Origin: an uncultured Prevotellaceae bacterium
Lineage (GTDB): Bacteria; Bacteroidota; Bacteroidia; Bacteroidales; Bacteroidaceae
Assembly (NCBI GenBank): GCA_900316315.1
Contig: ONCK01000004.1
Location: forward strand, 62,001 to 126,000
Reading direction: 5' to 3'
DNA length: 64,000 nucleotides
Shown here: positions 6,166 through 27,689 of the stretch, piece after piece
Layout: each line of letters starts with the position of its first letter
Numbering within the stretch: position 1 is the stretch's first letter
Made by a program: the position numbers and the translations under genes
The notes under the pieces: generated by a model
Told to the model about the DNA's origin: nothing
What the model saw: only the letters and a program-made list of their open reading frames with translations
The model's database searches: none

Positions 6166-7336
6166 AGTCTTTGATTTTGCGGTAGAGAGTACGTTCGGAG
6201 AGTCCGAGATCGGCGGCAGTGGCCTTGCGTATGCCCTTGTTGCGCTCGAGGGCGCGGCGGATAGATTCCTTCTCGATATCCTTCATAGAAAGCCCGTCCT
6301 GCAACTCTTCGATATATTCGTCCTTAGGATGGGTATTGGAGATATCATCAATCTGGTTGGTAGGAGACATGGTGACATGGGGGACTCCAAGTTCCTTGAT
6401 CTGTTCCGACTGTTGCTCTACTTTGCGTGTGAGCTCGGTCATGTCGCGACGCAGGTCAAAGAGGATATGGTAGAGTATCTCGCGTTCGCTCTCGTAGTTG
6501 TGACTCTGATTGTCATGGCCAACGACGGTGAGCTGGTTGCTCTGATTGTCCCTGGGGATGTAGTTGTCGAGTATCTCGGGGGTGATTTCGCGCTCTTTGG
6601 AAGTCACGGACATATTTTCTGTCACGTTTTTGAGCTGTCTCACATTGCCCGGCCAGGAGTAGGCCATGAGACGCTGTTTGGCCGGTTCGGTGAGGTGGAG
6701 AGGCGGCATATTGTACTTCTCGCTCATCTCGAGGGCAAATTTGCGGAAGAGCATGACCACATCTTCACCGCGCTCTCTGAGTGGCGGTATGTGGACGGGT
6801 ATGGTATTGAGACGGTAGTAAAGGTCTTCGCGGAAGCGGCCTTCGCTGATAGCCTTGGGGATATTGACATTGGTGGCGGCGACGATGCGCACGTTGGTCT
6901 TACGCACTTCACTCGAGCCCACACGGATATATTCTCCGGTCTCGAGAACGCGCAGGAGCCTGGCTTGGGTAGAAAGCGGGAGCTCGCCTACCTCGTCGAG
7001 AAAGAGGGTCCCGCCGTTGGCTACGCCAAAATAGCCTTCGCGCTCGTTGACAGCGCCGGTGAAGGCGCCGCGCTCATGGCCAAATAGCTCAGAATCAATG
7101 GTTCCCTCCGGAATGCTGCCACAGTTGACGGCAAAATATTTCTTTCCTTTGCGCTGACTATTGTCATGGATGATGCGTGGAAATATCTCTTTACCGACAC
7201 CATTTTCACCCGTGATGAGCACGCTGAGATCTGTAGGCGCTACTTGCAGGGCGACGTCAAGGGCGCGATTGAGTCCGTCGGCATTGCCGATTATCTGGTA
7301 CCTTTGTTTGATCTTCTGTAAGTCGGATTCGTTCAT
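6149..7336 (-). CDS. Sigma-54 interaction domain transcriptional activator without receiver domain
   Basis: The start MNESDLQ at 7336 gives 395 residues. A longer open frame to 7687 exists but has no domain and crosses the promoter. The AAA+ domain has Walker A (GENGVGKE, residues 43-50), the sigma-54 contact loop GAFTGA (90-95), Walker B (TLFLDEVGEL) and an arginine-finger region. A linker with a predicted coiled coil (LTRKVEQQSEQIKEL) leads to a C-terminal Fis-type helix-turn-helix (RKATAADLGLSERTLYRKI). No N-terminal receiver or other sensor is present. It heads an operon with lptE, a TPR-like gene and secG. Its target promoters are unknown. Confidence 0.88.
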   Translation of the reverse strand: MNESDLQKIKQRYQIIGNADGLNRALDVALQVAPTDLSVLITGENGVGKEIFPRIIHDNSQRKGKKYFAVNCGSIPEGTIDSELFGHERGAFTGAVNEREGYFGVANGGTLFLDEVGELPLSTQARLLRVLETGEYIRVGSSEVRKTNVRIVAATNVNIPKAISEGRFREDLYYRLNTIPVHIPPLRERGEDVVMLFRKFALEMSEKYNMPPLHLTEPAKQRLMAYSWPGNVRQLKNVTENMSVTSKEREITPEILDNYIPRDNQSNQLTVVGHDNQSHNYESEREILYHILFDLRRDMTELTRKVEQQSEQIKELGVPHVTMSPTNQIDDISNTHPKDEYIEELQDGLSMKDIEKESIRRALERNKGIRKATAADLGLSERTLYRKIKDYGLDN

Positions 7337-7376
7337 GCTATATTGATTGCTTTTTCCGGCAGTCCATTTTAATTTA

Positions 7377-7384
7377 CAAAGATA
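7377..7384 (-). promoter_or_regulatory. -7 element of the sigma-54 activator/lptE/secG operon
   Basis: TATCTTTG on the minus strand, 40 bp upstream of the ATG at 7336. Its position supports that start over the longer frame. Confidence 0.6.
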
Positions 7385-8221
7385 CAAATAAAAATTGGTC
7401 GCCGCGGCATCAGAATCTGTAAAAATTGCTTCCGACTTTACCGGATAGGGAGCCAGCGAGGAGAAAAGAGGCGTAAGACACTCGTTGCAAGACGCTATGC
7501 AGCAGTCTCCTGTGCTATGTCGGGCATAAGCGAGCCGTCTGTCCAGCGCAGGAGAGAAGGTGGATAAATCTGACACGGGAACAAGCTGGCAAAGATAGGG
7601 GTGGACGGGGCCTAAGATGGGGTTAAAGTGACTTCTACCGGGTGAGAAGAATATGGCGAACTTATCTGCGGAAGACAATCGAACCACTGGCAGATACGCT
7701 GTTACCCGGCAAGAAGCAGGCTTGCGGAACGCTCACTAGCCAATGGGAGGGGCATGGGGACATGCATACCACTTGCTGCTAGATCGTGCGATTTATATTG
7801 GGCAGGGGTGGAGGGAGGAAGACGGAGATTGGCTTTTTGCGTACGCCTCTGTCAGAGAGGCTTTTGGCAAGGTCGGAACAGCTTAATTGGACCGGCCGAA
7901 AGTCAGTGGCGGTGCGAGACCTTCATCTTCGCTAGCCGGAGGTCAGTCCACTGCTATCCTCTGCTCTTGTCGCCGATAGGTGGGCGTGTGTCTGTATCGG
8001 GCACTCTCTGATGGGCAAGACCATGTGGAGGGTGGCAGACAAAGCCCCGAGCGCCTTTTCGCCGTCTCTCTCTTCCATCGTAGGCCTCTCCACCGCTTTA
8101 GTGAAGACCTTTCCCAGTCATAGCGTAAGCCTTTCCACGAGGTCCAAGCCTGTCTGTACGAACGCTTGTTCTCACCCTACTCTACAGAAACGGATGAAAA
8201 TTTCAAAATCCTCGGTTTAGG
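7385..8221. other. Intergenic region, no gene recognised
   Basis: Short frames only. Around 8083-8140 there are three related CCTYTCC segments spaced 22-23 bp apart, which might be a decayed tandem repeat. A dispersed element follows from 8222. Confidence 0.45.
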
Positions 8222-8468
8222 TATGAGTATAAAAGAAAGGAAATCTGCCCAAAAGTCTCCGTAACTCGCTGAGATCCACCGAATTACAACTAAAATCTGA
8301 TGCTTTTGTAACCGACTGGCTATCAGACGATAACAACTCGCCTTCTAGTTTGACCTACATCGGACCTATTTTAAAATAAGTCCGACCTTGTTATGCAAAT
8401 ACGGTATCTTGTGATAACAACATCGGCACTTGTACGGGCAGTATCCCGAATTTATTATATAAAAAATG
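8222..8468 (+). repeat. Dispersed element copy A (short form)
   Basis: One of four related intergenic elements in this window. It shares with the others the segment AACTCGCCTTCTAG, a 26-nt palindrome at 8360-8385 (TCGGAC paired with GTCCGA around TTTTAAAA), the segment GACCTTGTTATGCAAA, an ATCGGCACTTGTA segment and an end of TTATATAAAAAA. Compared with the 288-292-bp copies at 33.4, 41.0 and 52.4 kb it is about 40 bp shorter on its left. No coding potential. Likely a miniature mobile element or a repeated structured RNA. Confidence 0.75.
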
Positions 8469-8732
8469 ATGGGCCTTCGTACGCTTGGAGAGTATTATTA
8501 CGAGAGGGCGGTTGCACCAGACGAGGTCTTCTTCTCATAGAATGCTTTCAAAGCATACCGTCAAGAAGACCGCACGGCTGGATATGACCGAGCTGCTTGA
8601 TGAAACTGCTGAGACTGGACGAGAGGGTTCGACATCAGGGCTACTGCATCCAGAGGGCATGACGATAGTTGCCCAGCCCTCCTGTGACAATTGTCCTCCG
8701 GATCGCGTAGCGCAGTCACTCGGAAGATTTGG

Positions 8733-11327
8733 CTAGAAGGTCATACGCATCATGAAGCGTATGCCCCATTTCTTGGCCTTGTAGTTATCCAGATAGTTCA
8801 TGCGGCGGACGAACTGGATATGCAAGATTTTGAAGATATTGTGGACACCTGCTACAAGTTCCCAATAGGGCCTCTTCTCATCCATCACATAGCTAGAGTA
8901 CTGATAAGATCCATCACTTTGGAAATGGCCGGGGAAGTAGTAGAGTGACGGGTCGCCGGGATGCTTGAAGGGATTGTTTTTGTCTGTCAATTGTCCCCAT
9001 AGCATATTGACACCGAGGTACTCGCGCCACTTTAGCTTGCGAAGGAGAGGTATGCGGTTGAATATGACGCCATTGAGATCCCAAGAAGCCATGAGTGAAG
9101 CGTAGCGGTCGTTGAGAAACTCCATGTTGTTGACCATATTAAACATATTGTCTTCTCGGATAAAGGAGAGGTTGGCGGCCGGCATGATTAGCAGGGGAAA
9201 GGGCACTTTGTTCCATTGGGCTCCGGCATTGAGCTTGACATCTATCTTGCCCGCAGCAGTGATCCAGAAGCGCTTATAGATAGACGCTTCGGTGAGATTG
9301 TATTTGTGTTGTCCGCCGAGGAAGCCGTCAAATCCGACAGTGTGAAACAGAGAGTAGATGGGGCTGTCCTTGTTAATGGTAATGCGCCGCTGCTTGGTGT
9401 TGACGTATTTGGCATGTGGCTGGAAGAAGAATCCAAAGCGTAGCTCGCTCGTATTCAAGTATTTGACATGATTTCCAGCCTCAGTGGTGGGCATACTGGC
9501 ATCGCTGAGACGCTGATAGAAGTATTTGGCTGTCGGTTCGTCTCGCTCGCGACGGAACTCGGTCTCAAATCTTAGACCGTTGGTGAGTTCGCGCTCATAC
9601 TTGATCCTCAGACGCTGGAAGTACATCATCTGGTCGACCTTGCTCCACTTAAAGCTGGTGAAGACATTGTCCTTGTCGGTCGGCATAAACTTGTCGGAGG
9701 GCGACATCACATCAGTCTGATAAGAGAAGGTGAGATTGTGAACAGGAAATTCGCGGGGCAAGTAGTCCTTTTCATTAAATGAGTAAGTGACTTCGCCGAG
9801 GCCTTTCCAGCGATTGTCCTTAAATCCGTAGGCGCCATAGCCCTTAAAGAAGAGATGCTTGTTGAGGTTGGCGGTAGTCTGGGCGCTGAAGCGAAGGCGT
9901 AGACCATCGACAAAGTTTTGCGAGATCATAGTATTGACTGGCCCGATATCGACCTTGCTGGGCTTCTCGGGATTGGTGCTCGTTTCGACGAAATTTTCGA
10001 TGAAGGCCTTGGCTACCCATAGGAAAGCCTTGAAATGCTTCATGTTTTGCATCTCAGTAATCATCTGTCCTATCTTGTCCTCGCTGCTACTGAGTTTGAC
10101 AGGACGCTTCTCTTGCCAGAAGGCTTGGTCGCGCATCATCGCCTTGGGATCGGTGTACTGAGGACCAAGAAATTTGAAGTCTTTCTTGGGTATATCGGAG
10201 GTACTGTAGTCACTATAGTAAGTGCTTCTTTCTACTTGAAATTTGGTCAGGAAGCTGGCGAGTTTCAGCTGTACAATCATCTTGTCGCTTGCCAGCAGCT
10301 GTTCTCCGCTGGGTAATGTGATAAACTCTTGGTCGACTTTGAGATCCTCCACGTAGTTGACATCGGATCTGCGCGGTATATTGAGCAGGACCTTTCGGAT
10401 GCGGTAGGTCGTGTCGGCCATAACATACAGGCTGCCGGTAAATCCAAAATCCTGGGGATTGGCTGGTGAGAAGTCTACCTGTATGCAGCGATCATTGCCG
10501 ACCATAAGCGTGTCGGCCAGGAAGTAGTGATAAAAAGCAATGGCAAAATGGGTGGAGACCGGACTTACAAATGGGTATTGCAGAAGGCGGACATTCTCCT
10601 TGTAGATATCGACATCGGTGAAGCAGTCCTGTATGAGGGCGTTGAGGATGTCACCGGTCTGGAGCAACTGATTGACGCCCTCTTCACGCTTGCCTTCAAT
10701 GATGGTCTTTTCACTTTCGGGCTGTTTCCGGTAGACATAGCGCGAGAGCTCCTCTGTGACGGATACGGGGAGAATACGCTTGCCGGTCTCTGGACATACT
10801 TCGACGTGGTTTTTGAGAAAGGGCATATTCTTGAAGTTGGCATCGCTGTAGACTTTGTCCGTAAATTCGTTGATGGAGAGTGTTGTCTTACGATACTGCT
10901 GATAGCTGAAATAGTCGTTGAGCTTGTAGTCACTTTCCTTTTTCGCAGCGATGACCTTACGCATAAACTCGACGGCAGGATTGTTTTTGCGCGTGTATTT
11001 CCTGCGCTTAGCTGTGACGACGGCCGTTTGGAGAGTTTGTTCAGAGCTCTTGAGCTTGATATTGACTACGCGTGTCTCAGATGAGATCCTGACAGTCTGC
11101 TTCTCATAGCCGACGTAGCTGAAAGTGAGAGTTGCTCCATTGATCTTGACAATGGAATATCGGCCTTCATAATCAGAGTTGACGCCTACAGCCTTGCCAT
11201 CGTAATGAATGTTGACGTAGGGCAGGGGCTCTCCAGTCTTGATATCGGTGATTTGCCCTGTAATATTTTGCCCCCATAGTGTAAGGGAAATCAGAGTAAG
11301 GAGCAAGGCTGACAAAAAGCGTTTCAT
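8733..11327 (-). CDS. DUF5686 / carboxypeptidase-regulatory-like outer-membrane protein
   Basis: An 864-residue protein with a signal peptide (residues 1-19, LTLWGQ), an N-terminal carboxypeptidase-D regulatory-like beta sandwich (NITGQITDIKTGEPLPYVNI to about residue 100) and a long DUF5686 domain that ends in a beta barrel whose last residues are GIRFMMRMTF. This is the layout of a large Bacteroidetes family thought to sit in the outer membrane; members lack a plug domain, so it is not a TonB receptor. No SusD partner is present. Function unknown. It follows a strong hairpin that ends the inositol synthase gene upstream. Confidence 0.85.
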   Translation of the reverse strand: MKRFLSALLLTLISLTLWGQNITGQITDIKTGEPLPYVNIHYDGKAVGVNSDYEGRYSIVKINGATLTFSYVGYEKQTVRISSETRVVNIKLKSSEQTLQTAVVTAKRRKYTRKNNPAVEFMRKVIAAKKESDYKLNDYFSYQQYRKTTLSINEFTDKVYSDANFKNMPFLKNHVEVCPETGKRILPVSVTEELSRYVYRKQPESEKTIIEGKREEGVNQLLQTGDILNALIQDCFTDVDIYKENVRLLQYPFVSPVSTHFAIAFYHYFLADTLMVGNDRCIQVDFSPANPQDFGFTGSLYVMADTTYRIRKVLLNIPRRSDVNYVEDLKVDQEFITLPSGEQLLASDKMIVQLKLASFLTKFQVERSTYYSDYSTSDIPKKDFKFLGPQYTDPKAMMRDQAFWQEKRPVKLSSSEDKIGQMITEMQNMKHFKAFLWVAKAFIENFVETSTNPEKPSKVDIGPVNTMISQNFVDGLRLRFSAQTTANLNKHLFFKGYGAYGFKDNRWKGLGEVTYSFNEKDYLPREFPVHNLTFSYQTDVMSPSDKFMPTDKDNVFTSFKWSKVDQMMYFQRLRIKYERELTNGLRFETEFRRERDEPTAKYFYQRLSDASMPTTEAGNHVKYLNTSELRFGFFFQPHAKYVNTKQRRITINKDSPIYSLFHTVGFDGFLGGQHKYNLTEASIYKRFWITAAGKIDVKLNAGAQWNKVPFPLLIMPAANLSFIREDNMFNMVNNMEFLNDRYASLMASWDLNGVIFNRIPLLRKLKWREYLGVNMLWGQLTDKNNPFKHPGDPSLYYFPGHFQSDGSYQYSSYVMDEKRPYWELVAGVHNIFKILHIQFVRRMNYLDNYKAKKWGIRFMMRMTF

Positions 11328-22244: not shown

Positions 22245-23471
22245 ATGCTTTTACGCTTGCTCGTTATATTTCTATTGTTTCTCGTTATCCCCGCAGTCAT
22301 CCTCTGGTGGCGGTTCAGGTCCGTCCTGTCCACGCCCAAGCGGAGGATACTCTTCTTCCTCCCTAATGCCGTCCTCATCATCGCAGCCGTACTGTTGAGC
22401 CTCTTTGAGACCTATTCGCCTGCCAATGCCCGCCTTACCGGCATCTTTCTAGTCGTCTTTATTGCATTCTCTCTGGTCGAGGTACTGTGTGCCCTGCTCT
22501 GCCTCATCGGCCTGTTGCTCAAGCGTATTCCCCATATGCTCCGCCTGTTTACTGCGCTTGGCTTTGTAGCTGCCGCTGCGGTCGTCTGTATCGTCGCTTA
22601 CGGATACTTCTGGGGCATGGACCGTCTCACCGTTACCTATACCGATATCACCCATCCCGATGTGCCGTGCGGTTTTGAAGGCTACCGCATCGTCTTCTTC
22701 TCCGATTTACATCTGGGCACTTATGGGCGCGACCCCCACATGCCCCTCAAGGTCATCCGGACCATAGAGGCTCAGCGCCCCGATATCATTCTCTTTGGCG
22801 GGGACCTCGTCAATTATCATACCAATGAGATTATCCCCTTCCTCTCGGAGCTCCGCCAGCTTCACGCGCCCGACGGCGTCTATGCCGTCATGGGCAATCA
22901 TGACTACCAGCTCCATCGCGAGTGGGAGAGTGGCGATGCCCGATCCGCCAGCGTCTTGCGCCTCCAGCAGTTGCTAAGGGGCGTCGGCTGGAAAATGCTG
23001 CTCAATGACCACCGCCTGCTTACCCATCGCGGCGACACCATCGCCCTGATTGGCGTGGAGAATGATGGCCTTCCCCCATTTCCCCAGCTCGGAGACCTGC
23101 CCAAGGCACAAAAGGGCCTGCCTGATACCCTGTCCAACGGGCGCCCCCTCTTCCGCATACTGCTCACTCACGACCCGACCCATTGGCGTCGCAAGGTCTT
23201 GCCCGATACCCCCATCCAGCTCACGCTCTCCGGCCACACCCATGCCTCCCAGTTGCAGATAGGCCCTTATAGCCCCTCGCAGTGTTTCTTCCGCGAGTGG
23301 GGCGGTCTCTATGCCTACACCCCCAGCGGGTCCTCTGCCGCGCGGTCAGCCCACCGCTACCTTTGGGTCAGCAAGGGCATCGGCGGCGCCATGGTTCCCT
23401 TCCGCTTCGGCGCTTGGCCGGAGATCAATGTCATCACCCTTCATTCATCCACTATTACGTCACAGCCATGA
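22245..23471 (+). CDS. Membrane-anchored metallophosphoesterase
   Basis: A 408-residue protein with four membrane helices in residues 1-135 and a calcineurin-like phosphoesterase domain after them. All metal-binding blocks are present: FFSDLHLGT, GGDLVNY, MGNHDYQ, LLTHDP and SGHTHASQLQIG. It is of the YkuE/YaeI type that removes phosphate from lipid A or phospholipid headgroups in some bacteria; the true substrate is unknown. Its stop codon overlaps the start of the acyltransferase gene (ATGA), suggesting translational coupling and a lipid-related role. Confidence 0.88.
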   Translation: MLLRLLVIFLLFLVIPAVILWWRFRSVLSTPKRRILFFLPNAVLIIAAVLLSLFETYSPANARLTGIFLVVFIAFSLVEVLCALLCLIGLLLKRIPHMLRLFTALGFVAAAAVVCIVAYGYFWGMDRLTVTYTDITHPDVPCGFEGYRIVFFSDLHLGTYGRDPHMPLKVIRTIEAQRPDIILFGGDLVNYHTNEIIPFLSELRQLHAPDGVYAVMGNHDYQLHREWESGDARSASVLRLQQLLRGVGWKMLLNDHRLLTHRGDTIALIGVENDGLPPFPQLGDLPKAQKGLPDTLSNGRPLFRILLTHDPTHWRRKVLPDTPIQLTLSGHTHASQLQIGPYSPSQCFFREWGGLYAYTPSGSSAARSAHRYLWVSKGIGGAMVPFRFGAWPEINVITLHSSTITSQP

Positions 23472-24202
23472 AATGGATTTATCGTCTCTATCAGCTCGTC
23501 ATCGCCCTTCCCTTGTTGCTCATCGCTACCCTGCTTACCAGTATCGTCACCATCGTAGGCTGTATGGCCGGTGGAGGTAAGTGGTGGGGGTATTATCCCT
23601 CCGTAGTCTGGTCCAAGCTCGTATGCCGTCTGCTCCTGCTGCCCATCCATGTAGAAGGATGCGAATTTATTAAGCGCGGTCAATCCTATGTCTTTGTTGC
23701 CAATCATCAAGGCGCCATGGATATCTTTTTGATGTTTGGTTATCTTGGCCATCAATTTCGCTGGATGATGAAGCGTAGCCTTGTCTCTATTCCGTTTGTT
23801 GGCTATGCGTGCAGACGTGCTCACCATATATTTGTTGACCATCGGAGTCCCAGCGCGACAGCTGAGACTATTCGTGCGGCGCGGTTTGTGCTCGAGCAAG
23901 GGATGTCGCTTGCCGTCTTTCCGGAAGGTACACGTACCCGCACTGGCCGTATAGGCAAATTTCATCGCGGGGCCTTCCTGCTTGCAGACGAGCTTCAGAT
24001 ACCTATAGTTCCGGTCACTATCGATGGTAGCTACGAAGTCTTGCCTCGTACACACGATATAGACTTTGTACATCGCCATCCCCTGCGCCTCATCATTCAC
24101 CAGCCCATAGAGCCAGAAGGGCAGGGTAGGGAGGATATCAATCAGCGCACCCAGCAGGCCTACGATATTATTCGTCAAAGTCTGCCGGAGCGATATCGAT
24201 AA
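23468..24202 (+). CDS. plsC: 1-acyl-sn-glycerol-3-phosphate acyltransferase
   Basis: 244 residues from MKWIYRLYQ; the longer open frame upstream is a shadow of the phosphoesterase gene. Residues 5-40 are an N-terminal membrane anchor. The acyltransferase motifs are the H-x4-D pair (NHQGAMDIF) and the glycerol-phosphate-binding FPEGTRTRTG, with a later PVTIDGS block. It makes phosphatidic acid from lysophosphatidic acid and acyl donor at the inner membrane. It overlaps the preceding gene by 4 bp. Confidence 0.92.
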   Translation: MKWIYRLYQLVIALPLLLIATLLTSIVTIVGCMAGGGKWWGYYPSVVWSKLVCRLLLLPIHVEGCEFIKRGQSYVFVANHQGAMDIFLMFGYLGHQFRWMMKRSLVSIPFVGYACRRAHHIFVDHRSPSATAETIRAARFVLEQGMSLAVFPEGTRTRTGRIGKFHRGAFLLADELQIPIVPVTIDGSYEVLPRTHDIDFVHRHPLRLIIHQPIEPEGQGREDINQRTQQAYDIIRQSLPERYR

Positions 24203-24409
24203 CTTCTTTAGCTTGCTGCAGATGACTTAGAGCGCTTTCGCTATGGCATCGAGATTGGGATATAGGAGGCTGACGGAGATCTTGCCAGTCAACACTTTTT
24301 AGAGAGGTCTTATCTTGTAGGACTGCAGATGCTACAACTACTATGTACAAGCTGTGAGAGTTGTTGTGAATAGATTTCGAAAGACTACCTTTGTACAGTC
24401 ATAGACACC

Positions 24410-24679
24410 TCGCTGACGCATCACGGTAGTAAGCTGTGTGTTGGCCTGCTGCACGGCATTGTAGCTTGCCGTTAGCCCTGCCATCGTGTCACGCAAACCA
24501 TTTATGGCACTCGAAGCGTTTTGCAAAGCCGCAACCATCTGGGTTACCGTAATCATCTTCTCCAGGAACTTGGCGGCATTGAGATTGTCGCGCAGTTCCT
24601 TTGCCGATGTTGAGGCGGTAACTAACTGCTCTTTGCCGTCAATGAGCAACTTAATGTTAAACTTTATTTCTTTTGCCAT
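24410..24679 (-). pseudogene. Phage tail tape-measure protein, N-terminal 90 codons
   Basis: MAKEIKFNIKLLIDGKEQL is a typical start of tape-measure proteins in Bacteroidetes phages, followed by helical Ala/Asn/Gln-rich sequence and ending QLTTVMRQR, a stretch that in intact proteins continues into a long coiled coil. Here the frame runs straight into the CRISPR repeat at 24409. The gene is therefore only a fragment of a protein usually many hundreds of residues long. Confidence 0.75.
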
Positions 24680-24719
24680 ATTTTCAGCGTATGAGTAACT
24701 AAGTAATCAATATTTCTTG

Positions 24720-24727
24720 TATCTTTG
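24720..24727 (+). promoter_or_regulatory. -7 element for the small membrane gene inside the phage segment
   Basis: TATCTTTG on the plus strand, 25 bp before the ATG at 24753. It points against the flanking phage tail genes. Confidence 0.5.
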
Positions 24728-24752
24728 TGGTGTAAGCCAATGGGTTAGAAGT

Positions 24753-24980
24753 ATGAGACAAAACAGAAACATATCGGCAAAAAGGCAAGCCAAAGAAAGA
24801 AAACTTTGGCGAAACATCACTATTGTCTCTTTCGCTGCTGTTGTCGTTTCGTTGCTGTTCCTTGGTTGCGTTGCCTTTTTGGCTAGTATTCTGTTCATGG
24901 GCGTGGCTTATGGGCAATATGATTTACGCAAACCATATAAGGATGGTGGGTATACACCTTGGTACTACGGCGCACTTTAG
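24753..24980 (+). CDS. Small basic membrane protein, phage moron-like
   Basis: 75 residues from MRQNRNISAKRQAKERK: a very basic N-terminus, one long or two short membrane helices (about residues 19-52, including VVVSLLFLGCVAFLASILF) and a polar tail ending PWYYGAL. It is opposite in strand to the phage tail genes on both sides and has its own promoter element, the arrangement of a phage moron. Its stop codon overlaps the stop region of the converging tail gene. No family recognised; superinfection exclusion is a guess from size, membrane location and position. Confidence 0.5.
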   Translation: MRQNRNISAKRQAKERKLWRNITIVSFAAVVVSLLFLGCVAFLASILFMGVAYGQYDLRKPYKDGGYTPWYYGAL

Positions 24981-25284
24981 CCGTTTCCCACTTTTCCCAA
25001 CACTTCCTCAAAACGCATTAACGCATCTTCCTTAGATACTGCCGGGGCTGCTTTCGTATGCTCCGGCTTTTTCTTATCCCATGGAAAGGGCAGAAGTTCG
25101 TGGGGCGTTAGCCTTTTCTTTGCATACGGCTGTATGGTTATTGCCGCGAGCATACGCATACGTTCCCAACTGTCTTGATACTGCGCCGTCCGCTCCTCGC
25201 TGTACGCCTTGTATATGTGGCTGAACTCCTCGGGCGTGAGGGCGCAAAAATCATTGTAGGGCAAACCGATGTTGCCAACGGCTA
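24977..25284 (-). pseudogene. Phage tail assembly protein, truncated at its N-terminus
   Basis: An open frame of about 101 codons begins at the edge of the right CRISPR repeat with VGNIGLPYNDFCALTPEEF and continues with YKAYSEERTAQYQDSWERM, the pattern of a small protein encoded just before the tape-measure gene in Bacteroidetes phages, probably a tail assembly chaperone. The normal start is missing; the frame is opened by the repeat junction, not by an ATG. Confidence 0.65.
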
Positions 25285-25410
25285 GTTGTGAATTGCTTTA
25301 GAATTATTACCTTTGTACAGTCATAGACACCTGTAACATTTTTGATGAGAACGGCGTCTTGCAATCTTGCTTTGCAGACAAAGCAGAAAGGTTGCTGGAG
25401 GGGGAATTGG

Positions 25411-25499: not shown

Positions 25500-27689
25500 C
25501 TATCGGATGAAGAGGAGCTCGCGGTACTTAGGCAGCGTCCACATCTCGTCTTCGACGATGAGTTCCAGCTTGTCGATATGGTAACGGATACTGTCGAGGT
25601 AAGGCATGACGGTGTCGTGGTAGAGCACGGCCTTCTGACGCTGGTCTTCGACCTTGTTGGCTACCTTGCGGGCATCGACCATCTTCTGCACATTCTCGAT
25701 GATGAAGCTGGTGTGCTTGGAGATCTTCTTGATGATATTGATATTGTCAACATTGAGCTTGGCAGCCTCGTCGGCGGGGAAGGTGGTTGAGATCTTGTGC
25801 ACATTGTCGATGAGGGTGCTCTGGTAGCGGGTGGCGACGGGGATGATGTGGTTAAGCGCGAGATCTCCGAAGACGCGGGCCTCAATCTGAATCTTTTTGG
25901 TGAAGGTTTCCCACTTGATGTCGTTGCGGGCGATGAGCTCATTCTTCTTGAGCACATGCATGGACTCAAACATCTTGATGCTCTCAGGCTTGAGGTAATT
26001 GTCAAAGATGACAGGGCAAGAGGTCTCGCAGTCGAGTCCGCGCTTCTGGGCTTCCTGCTTCCACTCCTCGCTGTATCCGTTGCCCTCGAAGTGGATGGGC
26101 TTGCATGTCTTGATATCCTGACGGAGAATGGTGAGGATAGCGGCATTCTTGTCGGTGCCCTTGCTGATGAGCTCGTCAACGCGTGTCTTGAAGTCGGTGA
26201 GGGCTTCGGCTACGGCTGTATTGAGCACGAGCATGGCGGCTGCGGGGTTAGCCTGTGAACCGACGGCGCGGAACTCGAAGCGGTTGCCGGTGAAGGCGAA
26301 GGGACTCGTACGGTTGCGGTCGGTGGTATCAATGCGCAGGTCGGGGATTTGAGGGATGTCGAGGGACATCTTGGTCTTGCCCTTGAGAGAGGCAAACTCG
26401 CCGGCGTCGGACTTCTCTATCTCGTCGAGGACCTTGCTGACCTGTGCGCCGAGGAAGGAGGAGATGATGGCTGGCGGTGCCTCATTGGCGCCGAGACGAT
26501 GCTGGTTGCTGGCGGTGATGATGGATGCTTTGAGCAGGCCGTTGTGGCGATATACGCCCATGAGGGTCTCCACGATGAAGGTGATGAAGCGCAGGTCGGC
26601 GTTCTCGTCCTTGCCGGGTGCGTGGAGCAGGATACCGGTATCGGTAGAGAGGGACCAGTTGCAGTGCTTGCCGCTACCGTTGATGCCCTTGAAGGGCTTC
26701 TCATGGAGGAGGCAGCGGAAGCCGTGCTTGCGGGCTACCTTGCGCATGAGGGACATGAGGAGCATATTGTGGTCGACAGCGAGGCTGCACTCCTCAAAGA
26801 TAGGAGCGATTTCAAACTGGTTGGGGGCGACCTCATTGTGGCGGGTCTTGCAGGGAATGCCGAGCTCGAGGGCCTGGATCTCGAGGTCCTTCATAAAGGC
26901 TGCGACACGGGTGGGGATGGCACCGAAGTAGTGGTCTTCCATCTGCTGGTTTTTGGCGGAGTCGTGGCCCATGAGGGTACGGCCGGTCAGCAGGAGGTCA
27001 GGACGGGCGGCGTAGAGACCTTCGTCGACGAGGAAGTACTCTTGTTCCCAGCCCAGGTTGGCATGGACCTTCTTGACGTCGGGATTGAAGTACTGGCAGA
27101 CGGCGGTTGCGGCCTTGTCAACGGCAGCAATGGCTTTCTTAAGAGGTGCCTTGTAGTCGAGGGCTTCACCGGTATAAGAAATGAAGATGGTCGGAATCAT
27201 CAGCGTGTCGTCGACGATGAAGACGGGACTTGCAGGGTCCCAGGCTGAGTAACCACGGGCTTCAAAGGTGGAACGAATGCCGCCGCTGGGGAAAGAGGAG
27301 GCGTCGGGCTCTTGCTGTACGAGCTCCTTGCCGCTGAATTCTTCAATCATGCCGCCCTTTCCGTCGTGCTCGACAAAGGCATCGTGCTTTTCTGCAGTGC
27401 CTTCGGTAAGAGGCTGGAACCAGTGGGTACAGTGGGTAACACCCATCTCGATGGCCCACTTCTTCATGCCGGCTGCGACCTGATCGGCCACGCTGAGCTC
27501 AAGCGGAGCTCCATTGTCTATGACATCACGCAACTTATTGTATACATCCAACGGGAGGTACTTAAACATCTTCTCCCTGTTAAATACATACTTGGCGAAG
27601 TATTCACTTGGCCTTCCCTTGGGTGCTTCCACCTCGAGCGCTTTCTTCTTGAAAGCTTCTTCGACAACGATAAATCTTAAGTTTGCCAT
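25500..27689 (-). CDS. glnA: Glutamine synthetase type III (GlnN-like)
   Basis: A 729-residue cytosolic enzyme that makes glutamine from glutamate, ammonia and ATP. The length and the N-terminal extension (FAKYVFNREKMFKYL) mark the type III group common in Bacteroidetes. Catalytic blocks include WEQEYFLVD, CKTRHNEVAPNQFEIAP, the loop GINGSGKHCNWSLS, and TDRNRTSPFAFTGNRFE with the substrate-binding arginines. The adenylylation tyrosine site of type I enzymes is absent as expected. It follows dapL by 69 bp on the same strand, so it may share transcripts with the lysine genes. Confidence 0.96.
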   Translation of the reverse strand: MANLRFIVVEEAFKKKALEVEAPKGRPSEYFAKYVFNREKMFKYLPLDVYNKLRDVIDNGAPLELSVADQVAAGMKKWAIEMGVTHCTHWFQPLTEGTAEKHDAFVEHDGKGGMIEEFSGKELVQQEPDASSFPSGGIRSTFEARGYSAWDPASPVFIVDDTLMIPTIFISYTGEALDYKAPLKKAIAAVDKAATAVCQYFNPDVKKVHANLGWEQEYFLVDEGLYAARPDLLLTGRTLMGHDSAKNQQMEDHYFGAIPTRVAAFMKDLEIQALELGIPCKTRHNEVAPNQFEIAPIFEECSLAVDHNMLLMSLMRKVARKHGFRCLLHEKPFKGINGSGKHCNWSLSTDTGILLHAPGKDENADLRFITFIVETLMGVYRHNGLLKASIITASNQHRLGANEAPPAIISSFLGAQVSKVLDEIEKSDAGEFASLKGKTKMSLDIPQIPDLRIDTTDRNRTSPFAFTGNRFEFRAVGSQANPAAAMLVLNTAVAEALTDFKTRVDELISKGTDKNAAILTILRQDIKTCKPIHFEGNGYSEEWKQEAQKRGLDCETSCPVIFDNYLKPESIKMFESMHVLKKNELIARNDIKWETFTKKIQIEARVFGDLALNHIIPVATRYQSTLIDNVHKISTTFPADEAAKLNVDNINIIKKISKHTSFIIENVQKMVDARKVANKVEDQRQKAVLYHDTVMPYLDSIRYHIDKLELIVEDEMWTLPKYRELLFIR

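Follow-up and report, generated by a model that had tools for sequence, protein, structure and literature searches.

It is commonly held that the length of CRISPR spacers is set by a ruler residing in Cas1-Cas2. How, then, did 875 bp of phage DNA come to lie between two CRISPR-like repeats in the 64,000-nt stretch of bacterial DNA analysed here (the window), and can this DNA be called a spacer? The first-pass annotation had described two 47-nt direct repeats enclosing 875 bp and sharing their 5' part and 3' half, and both statements were confirmed. A direct-repeat search of the window returned a single pair (24363-24410 and 25285-25332, 88% identity over 48 nt), with a start-to-start distance of 922. 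Taken as 47-nt units, the two copies (R1 and R2, Table 1) are identical at 41 of 47 positions: they agree in the first 9 nt (GTTGTGAAT) and from TACCTTTG through ACACC, their longest common exact stretch is 25 nt, and all six mismatches are confined to 14 positions in the middle. R1 is degenerate in this middle part and retains the promoter boxes TTGTGAA and TACCTTTG.

Table 1. Features of the repeat-bounded locus and of the genes beside it (positions in the window)
Feature	Position	Strand	Remark
Acyltransferase (PF01553), flanking host gene	23282..24202	+	convergent with glutamine synthetase
R1, type II-C-like CRISPR repeat, leader-distal	24363..24409	+	direct-repeat search
Giant spacer, contiguous phage DNA	24410..25284	.	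collinear with IMG/VR phage contigs up to both borders
Putative original spacer S1, first 30 nt of giant	24410..24439	+	proposed from the 30-nt spacers of relatives
Start of tape-measure gene, 90 codons, severed by R1	24410..24679	-	P0001
Single-span membrane ORF, 75 aa, intact, phage accessory gene	24753..24980	+	
Gene just upstream of tape measure in phages, start missing, severed by R2	24977..25284	-	P0002
Putative original spacer S2, last 30 nt of giant	25255..25284	+	proposed from array anatomy
R2, CRISPR repeat, leader-proximal side	25285..25331	+	nearer II-C consensus than R1
Glutamine synthetase type III, flanking host gene	25500..27689	-	

Judged by the arrays of related genomes, the 47-nt unit does belong to the type II-C CRISPR repeats. 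A pattern made from its 3' half found close copies with an unvarying period of 78 in the genome G271, where ten 48-nt repeats and nine 30-nt spacers form an array adjoined by cas9 (1499 aa), cas1 and cas2, with an anti-repeat next to cas9. The leader-distal repeat of this array has degenerated in its middle just where R1 has, and both boxes, TTGTGAA and TAnnTTTG, are preserved in it, as is the 3' half. A looser 47-nt pattern had matches in 42 of the 151 family genomes, mostly in regular arrays with a period of 76-77. The ordinary spacers extracted from the relatives (n=279) are about 30 nt long, and on this ground we conclude that a Cas1-Cas2 ruler does exist in these systems. The proposal that the repeats follow the Bacteroidetes type II-C plan was thus borne out by close copies standing in regular arrays, in G271 beside cas9-cas1-cas2, and the interpretation of the locus as a CRISPR spacer is supported by arrays of the G271 type together with the contiguous phage insert. 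Other searches with the repeat were less productive: no exact match to the 3' half turned up in viral and genome collections, a plasmid search found nothing, and a gapped repeat pattern matched only the G271 record itself. The spacers of G271, G063 and G081, compared with phages, yielded no usable protospacers, hence no PAM could be derived.

The window array resembles the type II-C arrays of Bacteroidales with 47-48-nt repeats (cas9-cas1-cas2) in the plan of the repeat, in the sequence of both halves, in the promoter-like boxes within the repeat, in the degenerate leader-distal repeat and in the phage origin of the insert. It differs from them in that they contain spacers of about 30 nt, whereas the window array has one 875-bp spacer and no cognate cas genes or tracrRNA were found in its genome. 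Compared with what is expected of a II-C array, its repeat family forms regular arrays and its spacer comes from a mobile element, but the uniform spacer length of about 30 nt is absent, the sole spacer being 875 bp long.

It is very unlikely that the two copies are not CRISPR repeats at all, but promoter-like or mobile-element repeats placed around a gene cassette. They do resemble Bacteroidetes promoters (TTG, ~20 nt, TAnnTTTG), solitary copies are present in some genomes, and a similar, non-CRISPR pair occurs in G144, 1918 bp apart, before an AAA_14/DUF4143 gene. However, the window repeat stops at exactly 47 nt and matches the array repeats beside cas1/cas2 (G271, G063) in its 3' half too, and the insert contains no transposase or integrase and has its terminal genes severed at the borders.

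In the source genome (2.45 Mb, 31 contigs, 99% complete) there are no further copies of R1/R2. The only Cas9 found there by a RuvC_III search is on contig C14 and serves an unrelated 36-nt repeat; a cognate cas9-cas1-cas2 locus was neither found in the genome nor adjacent to the window array, which has host genes at its sides. Probing the genome for a tracrRNA anti-repeat with a 15-nt probe gave nothing above the control level. The first-pass annotation had suggested looking in the genome for additional repeat copies with a cas9-cas1-cas2 locus; this search found just the two copies and no cognate locus, although such genes with close repeats are present in G271. The window array is an orphan, i.e. 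leftover, type II-C mini-array. It shares with virus-borne mini-arrays or solitary repeat units the arrangement of one spacer between two repeats, one of them often incomplete, but those sit in viruses, whereas this one lies between bacterial genes and its source phages are repeat-free near the borders. In relatives within the genus the acyltransferase gene does not adjoin the glutamine synthetase gene, therefore the genus offers no usable empty site. Of the giant spacer only the S2 end (last 30 nt) is directly followed by a repeat, consequently only these 30 nt could guide a Cas9. Neither a Cas9 nor a tracrRNA to go with the array was found, which makes the giant, as an immune memory, a fossil; expression of its membrane gene, and from the promoter within R1, could still occur. 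The C14 locus itself (L008, 8119-14201) is a type II system with cas9 (1203 aa), cas1, cas2, 18 perfect 36-nt repeats and spacers of 29-30 nt, none of which has a match in the giant or in the phage loci compared.

The insert is one contiguous piece of phage DNA, with both joins exactly at the repeat-spacer borders. Its contents are those described earlier: a tape-measure start of 90 codons, a small membrane gene and a headless tail gene. P0001 has 75% amino acid identity to the 1082-aa tape-measure frame of the phage contig L052, whose 77% match to the insert begins at base 2 beside R1. P0002 has 88% amino acid identity to L050 (IMG/VR contig 3300021256_000182) and matches phrog_16333 (E=1.7e-15); in nucleotide sequence L050 is 92% identical over the 309 bases adjoining R2, and the match stops at the repeat. 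In the phages the frames run on beyond both cuts, into the remainder of the 1082-aa tape measure and into extra upstream residues of the P0002 gene, which agrees with the earlier statement that both phage genes are cut exactly at the repeats. The proposed comparison of the 875 bp with phages thus produced collinear matches up to both borders, and the gene order is that of Bacteroides phages F1 and F4. In relatives an ORF with a similar C-terminal end occupies the position of the membrane ORF. The three ORFs include no recombinase (transposase and integrase were sought), and there are no terminal inverted repeats at the borders of the insert. A distant counterpart exists in the source genome itself: a phage-like region on contig C29 (L009, about 6700-11000) contains relatives of both captured tail genes (~47% amino acid identity) and two tape-measure-like starts in tandem.

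A phage contig misjoined by the assembler between two repeats of one array could in principle give the same picture, and it must be noted that the genome is a draft of 31 contigs and that the repeats have a 25-nt exact stretch in common. For such a misjoin the phage contig would have to contain a copy of the repeat, but the matching phages (L050, L052) have no CRISPR repeat near either border, and a like architecture is present in independent assemblies from other genera. We regard an assembly artefact as highly improbable.

The first-pass annotation knew of no described array with such a spacer. Our literature search for gene-sized spacers did not find a published case either, but the window is not unique. 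What is new here is that giant spacers are recurrent: the 151-genome family sample contains three further phage-derived ones, of 906 bp (G047), 1537 bp (G063) and about 2624 bp (G012), so that, besides the window's own species, three or more species of the family have them. Since the reading in full covered part of the arrays in the 42 matching genomes, the resulting frequency of about one genome in ten, drawn from a small sample, is a minimum.

The most complete example is G063, in which the leader-distal repeat is followed by 1537 bp and then by 22 regular repeats with 21 ordinary spacers; cas2 and cas1 are adjacent to the array and a Cas9 frame of 1418 aa is on the same contig. The two repeats flanking the giant are identical at 47 of 47 positions. 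A single IMG/VR phage contig (L157) matches the giant collinearly up to both borders at 80-82% identity, and, as in the window, contiguous phage DNA is severed exactly at both repeats, here in a gene for a sigma factor, of which 81 of 167 codons are left, and in a second gene, of which 87 of 206 remain. Its interior contains a complete HicA toxin gene with a partner ORF, which by position and sequence appears HicB-like, with no Pfam call. In G012, which belongs to the genus of the window, about 2624 bp lie between one degenerate and one ordinary repeat. Of this giant 89% matches Bacteroides phage Versailles at ~69%, reaching the border; it starts mid-gene in the phage ADP-ribosyltransferase, about 0.9 kb of which is missing, also contains genes for an ADP-ribosylglycohydrolase and phrog_19606, and has at its R2-side end a 244-bp DUF2400 fragment absent from the matching phage. 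The locus (L132) is on a short contig with Nextera adapter-like sequence at both ends (CTGTCTCTTATACACATCT, AAGAGACAG). The 906 bp of G047 contain, as in G012, a gene of the ADP-ribosyltransferase family (here its headless end) and a phrog_19606 gene, while the opposite border bears a cut fragment; compared with phage DNA they gave no match, and the assignment of this giant as phage-derived rests on its protein families. No Cas9 was found in the G047 genome, and the giant pair (L027, 2900-4460) is ~100 bp from an array with a Cas12a-like repeat (CTACAAAAGTAGAAATTAAT). The G012 and G047 giants, from different genera, thus hold the same phage neighbourhood (ADP-ribosyltransferase and phrog_19606 genes), which may be chance or may reflect retention of useful genes. 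A 238-bp spacer with exact repeat borders in G049, listed apart from the phage-derived giants, is probably comparable to them. Counted from the leader-distal end, the giant is 1/22 in G063 and 2/10 in G049, the remaining arrays being too short to tell, and the repeat preceding it is degenerate in G012 and G049.

Two mechanisms had been offered for the window spacer, uptake of a very long fragment and recombination of two spacers with their phage. We favour the latter, with a confidence slightly above even: the array would once have held two spacers of one phage, and a double crossover with a relative of that phage would have made the giant. According to this model the ancestral array would have been R1-TCGCTGACGCATCACGGTAGTAAGCTGTGT-repeat-TGTAGGGCAAACCGATGTTGCCAACGGCTA-R2, its two ordinary 30-nt spacers sharing one orientation and stemming from sites about 800 bp apart in one phage. 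Both would then have recombined with a relative of this phage during infection, whereby the repeat between S1 and S2 would have been replaced by the phage DNA lying between the two protospacers. The giants of other species could have arisen by the same process. Since the borders are exact on both sides, spacer insertion is the probable maker of both ends, and phage and repeat lack any homology that could account for the joins. The model also agrees with the collinearity of the insert with the phage gene order, with the relatives' ordinary spacers staying at about 30 nt, and with the difference between R1 and R2 (6 of 47) in the presence of intact phage ORFs, whereas one direct insertion would duplicate one repeat. 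There is a precedent as well: according to PMC8616872, which cites Varble et al. 2019, recombination between a spacer and its phage target moves CRISPR loci by transduction. There, as in the model, homology between spacer and protospacer serves as the crossover site; the difference is that the phage carries CRISPR loci off, whereas in the window phage DNA would have stayed in the array.

Several observations weigh against the two-spacer recombination model or fail to support it. An ancestral S1-repeat-S2 array was not found in the comparison of one genome per species. Homologies of 30 nt are close to the lower limit for recombination. Inside S1 the flank reads GTTGGCCTGC, outside S2 it reads TGCCCAGAAT in the phage L050, and the two have no motif in common; the flanks of the G063 giant share a partial one. 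The divergence of R1 may merely reflect the age of a terminal repeat, as in G271. Nor does recombination alone predict the leader-distal siting seen in both informative arrays, though giants could persist there because recombination between repeats, by which arrays are trimmed, would work poorly on the degenerate ones. Prophage insertion by a single crossover, followed by deletion, was excluded: in the giants, the 30 nt at one end do not recur at the other.

In the other mechanism, which we rank second and consider rather unlikely, the II-C Cas1-Cas2 would insert a long untrimmed phage fragment in one step, with duplication of the repeat, in the manner of a casposase. Casposase, a Cas1 homologue, inserts kilobase DNA with duplication of a repeat-sized target, and to this extent the window insert is like a casposon; unlike casposons it has no casposon genes or terminal inverted repeats and is plain phage DNA. 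Direct acquisition would explain the exact borders on both sides, the recurrence of giants (875, 906, 1537 and about 2624 bp, plus 238 bp) among arrays of 30-nt spacers, and the G063 array, whose giant has identical flanking repeats and stands leader-distal, i.e. oldest, as expected of a founding insertion. It is less easily reconciled with the 279 spacers of about 30 nt in relatives and the lack of exact-border lengths between 30 and 238, with R1 and R2 not being copies of one repeat, with the degenerate repeat before the giant in G012 and G049, or with the absence of a published case from our literature search. Its extension, that the II-C machinery of Bacteroidales occasionally inserts kilobase phage fragments casposase-like, and that arrays in this way capture whole, possibly phage-protective genes (membrane protein, HicA, ADP-ribosylglycohydrolase), appears to us unlikely. 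Of the two mechanisms recombination is thus preferred, on account of spacer length, the non-identity of R1 and R2 and the precedent, but it is not proven.

Irrespective of its origin, the giant might have been kept for a function: RNA from the R1 promoter could be antisense to the tape-measure and upstream messages, or the membrane protein could block superinfection. Both severed genes do run antisense to R1, there is an intact membrane ORF of 75 aa, and intact accessory genes are present in the other giants (HicA in G063, ADP-ribosylglycohydrolase and phrog_19606 in G012, phrog_19606 in G047). Intact genes, however, may mean just recent capture, and the G012 giant is decaying, as indicated by the gap in its ADP-ribosyltransferase gene. 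Retention for function seems to us quite unlikely.

Gene-sized spacers with exact borders in several genera imply that either phages rewrite arrays via old spacers or the adaptation machinery inserts very long DNA. Whole pieces of phage genomes can thus enter the immune memory of bacteria, and one of the giants (G063) stands in a complete cas9-cas1-cas2 locus. Either mechanism bears on the ageing and decay of arrays, and either would be a path for phage cargo genes into chromosomes. Array finders requiring short spacers would overlook such loci.

Three other loci were rejected or set aside as giant spacers. The G144 pair belongs to a longer dispersed repeat (L111, 4870-6900), which exceeds 110 bp, flanks the AAA_14/DUF4143 gene and is II-C-repeat-like in its first 31 nt; it may mislead CRISPR finders. 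In G058 and G116 the extra DNA is within a repeat, not between repeats: the leader-distal repeat is split by a small membrane-protein gene in G058 (L110, 1501-2028), and by a 70-bp element, twice, in G116 (L097, 1207-1500).
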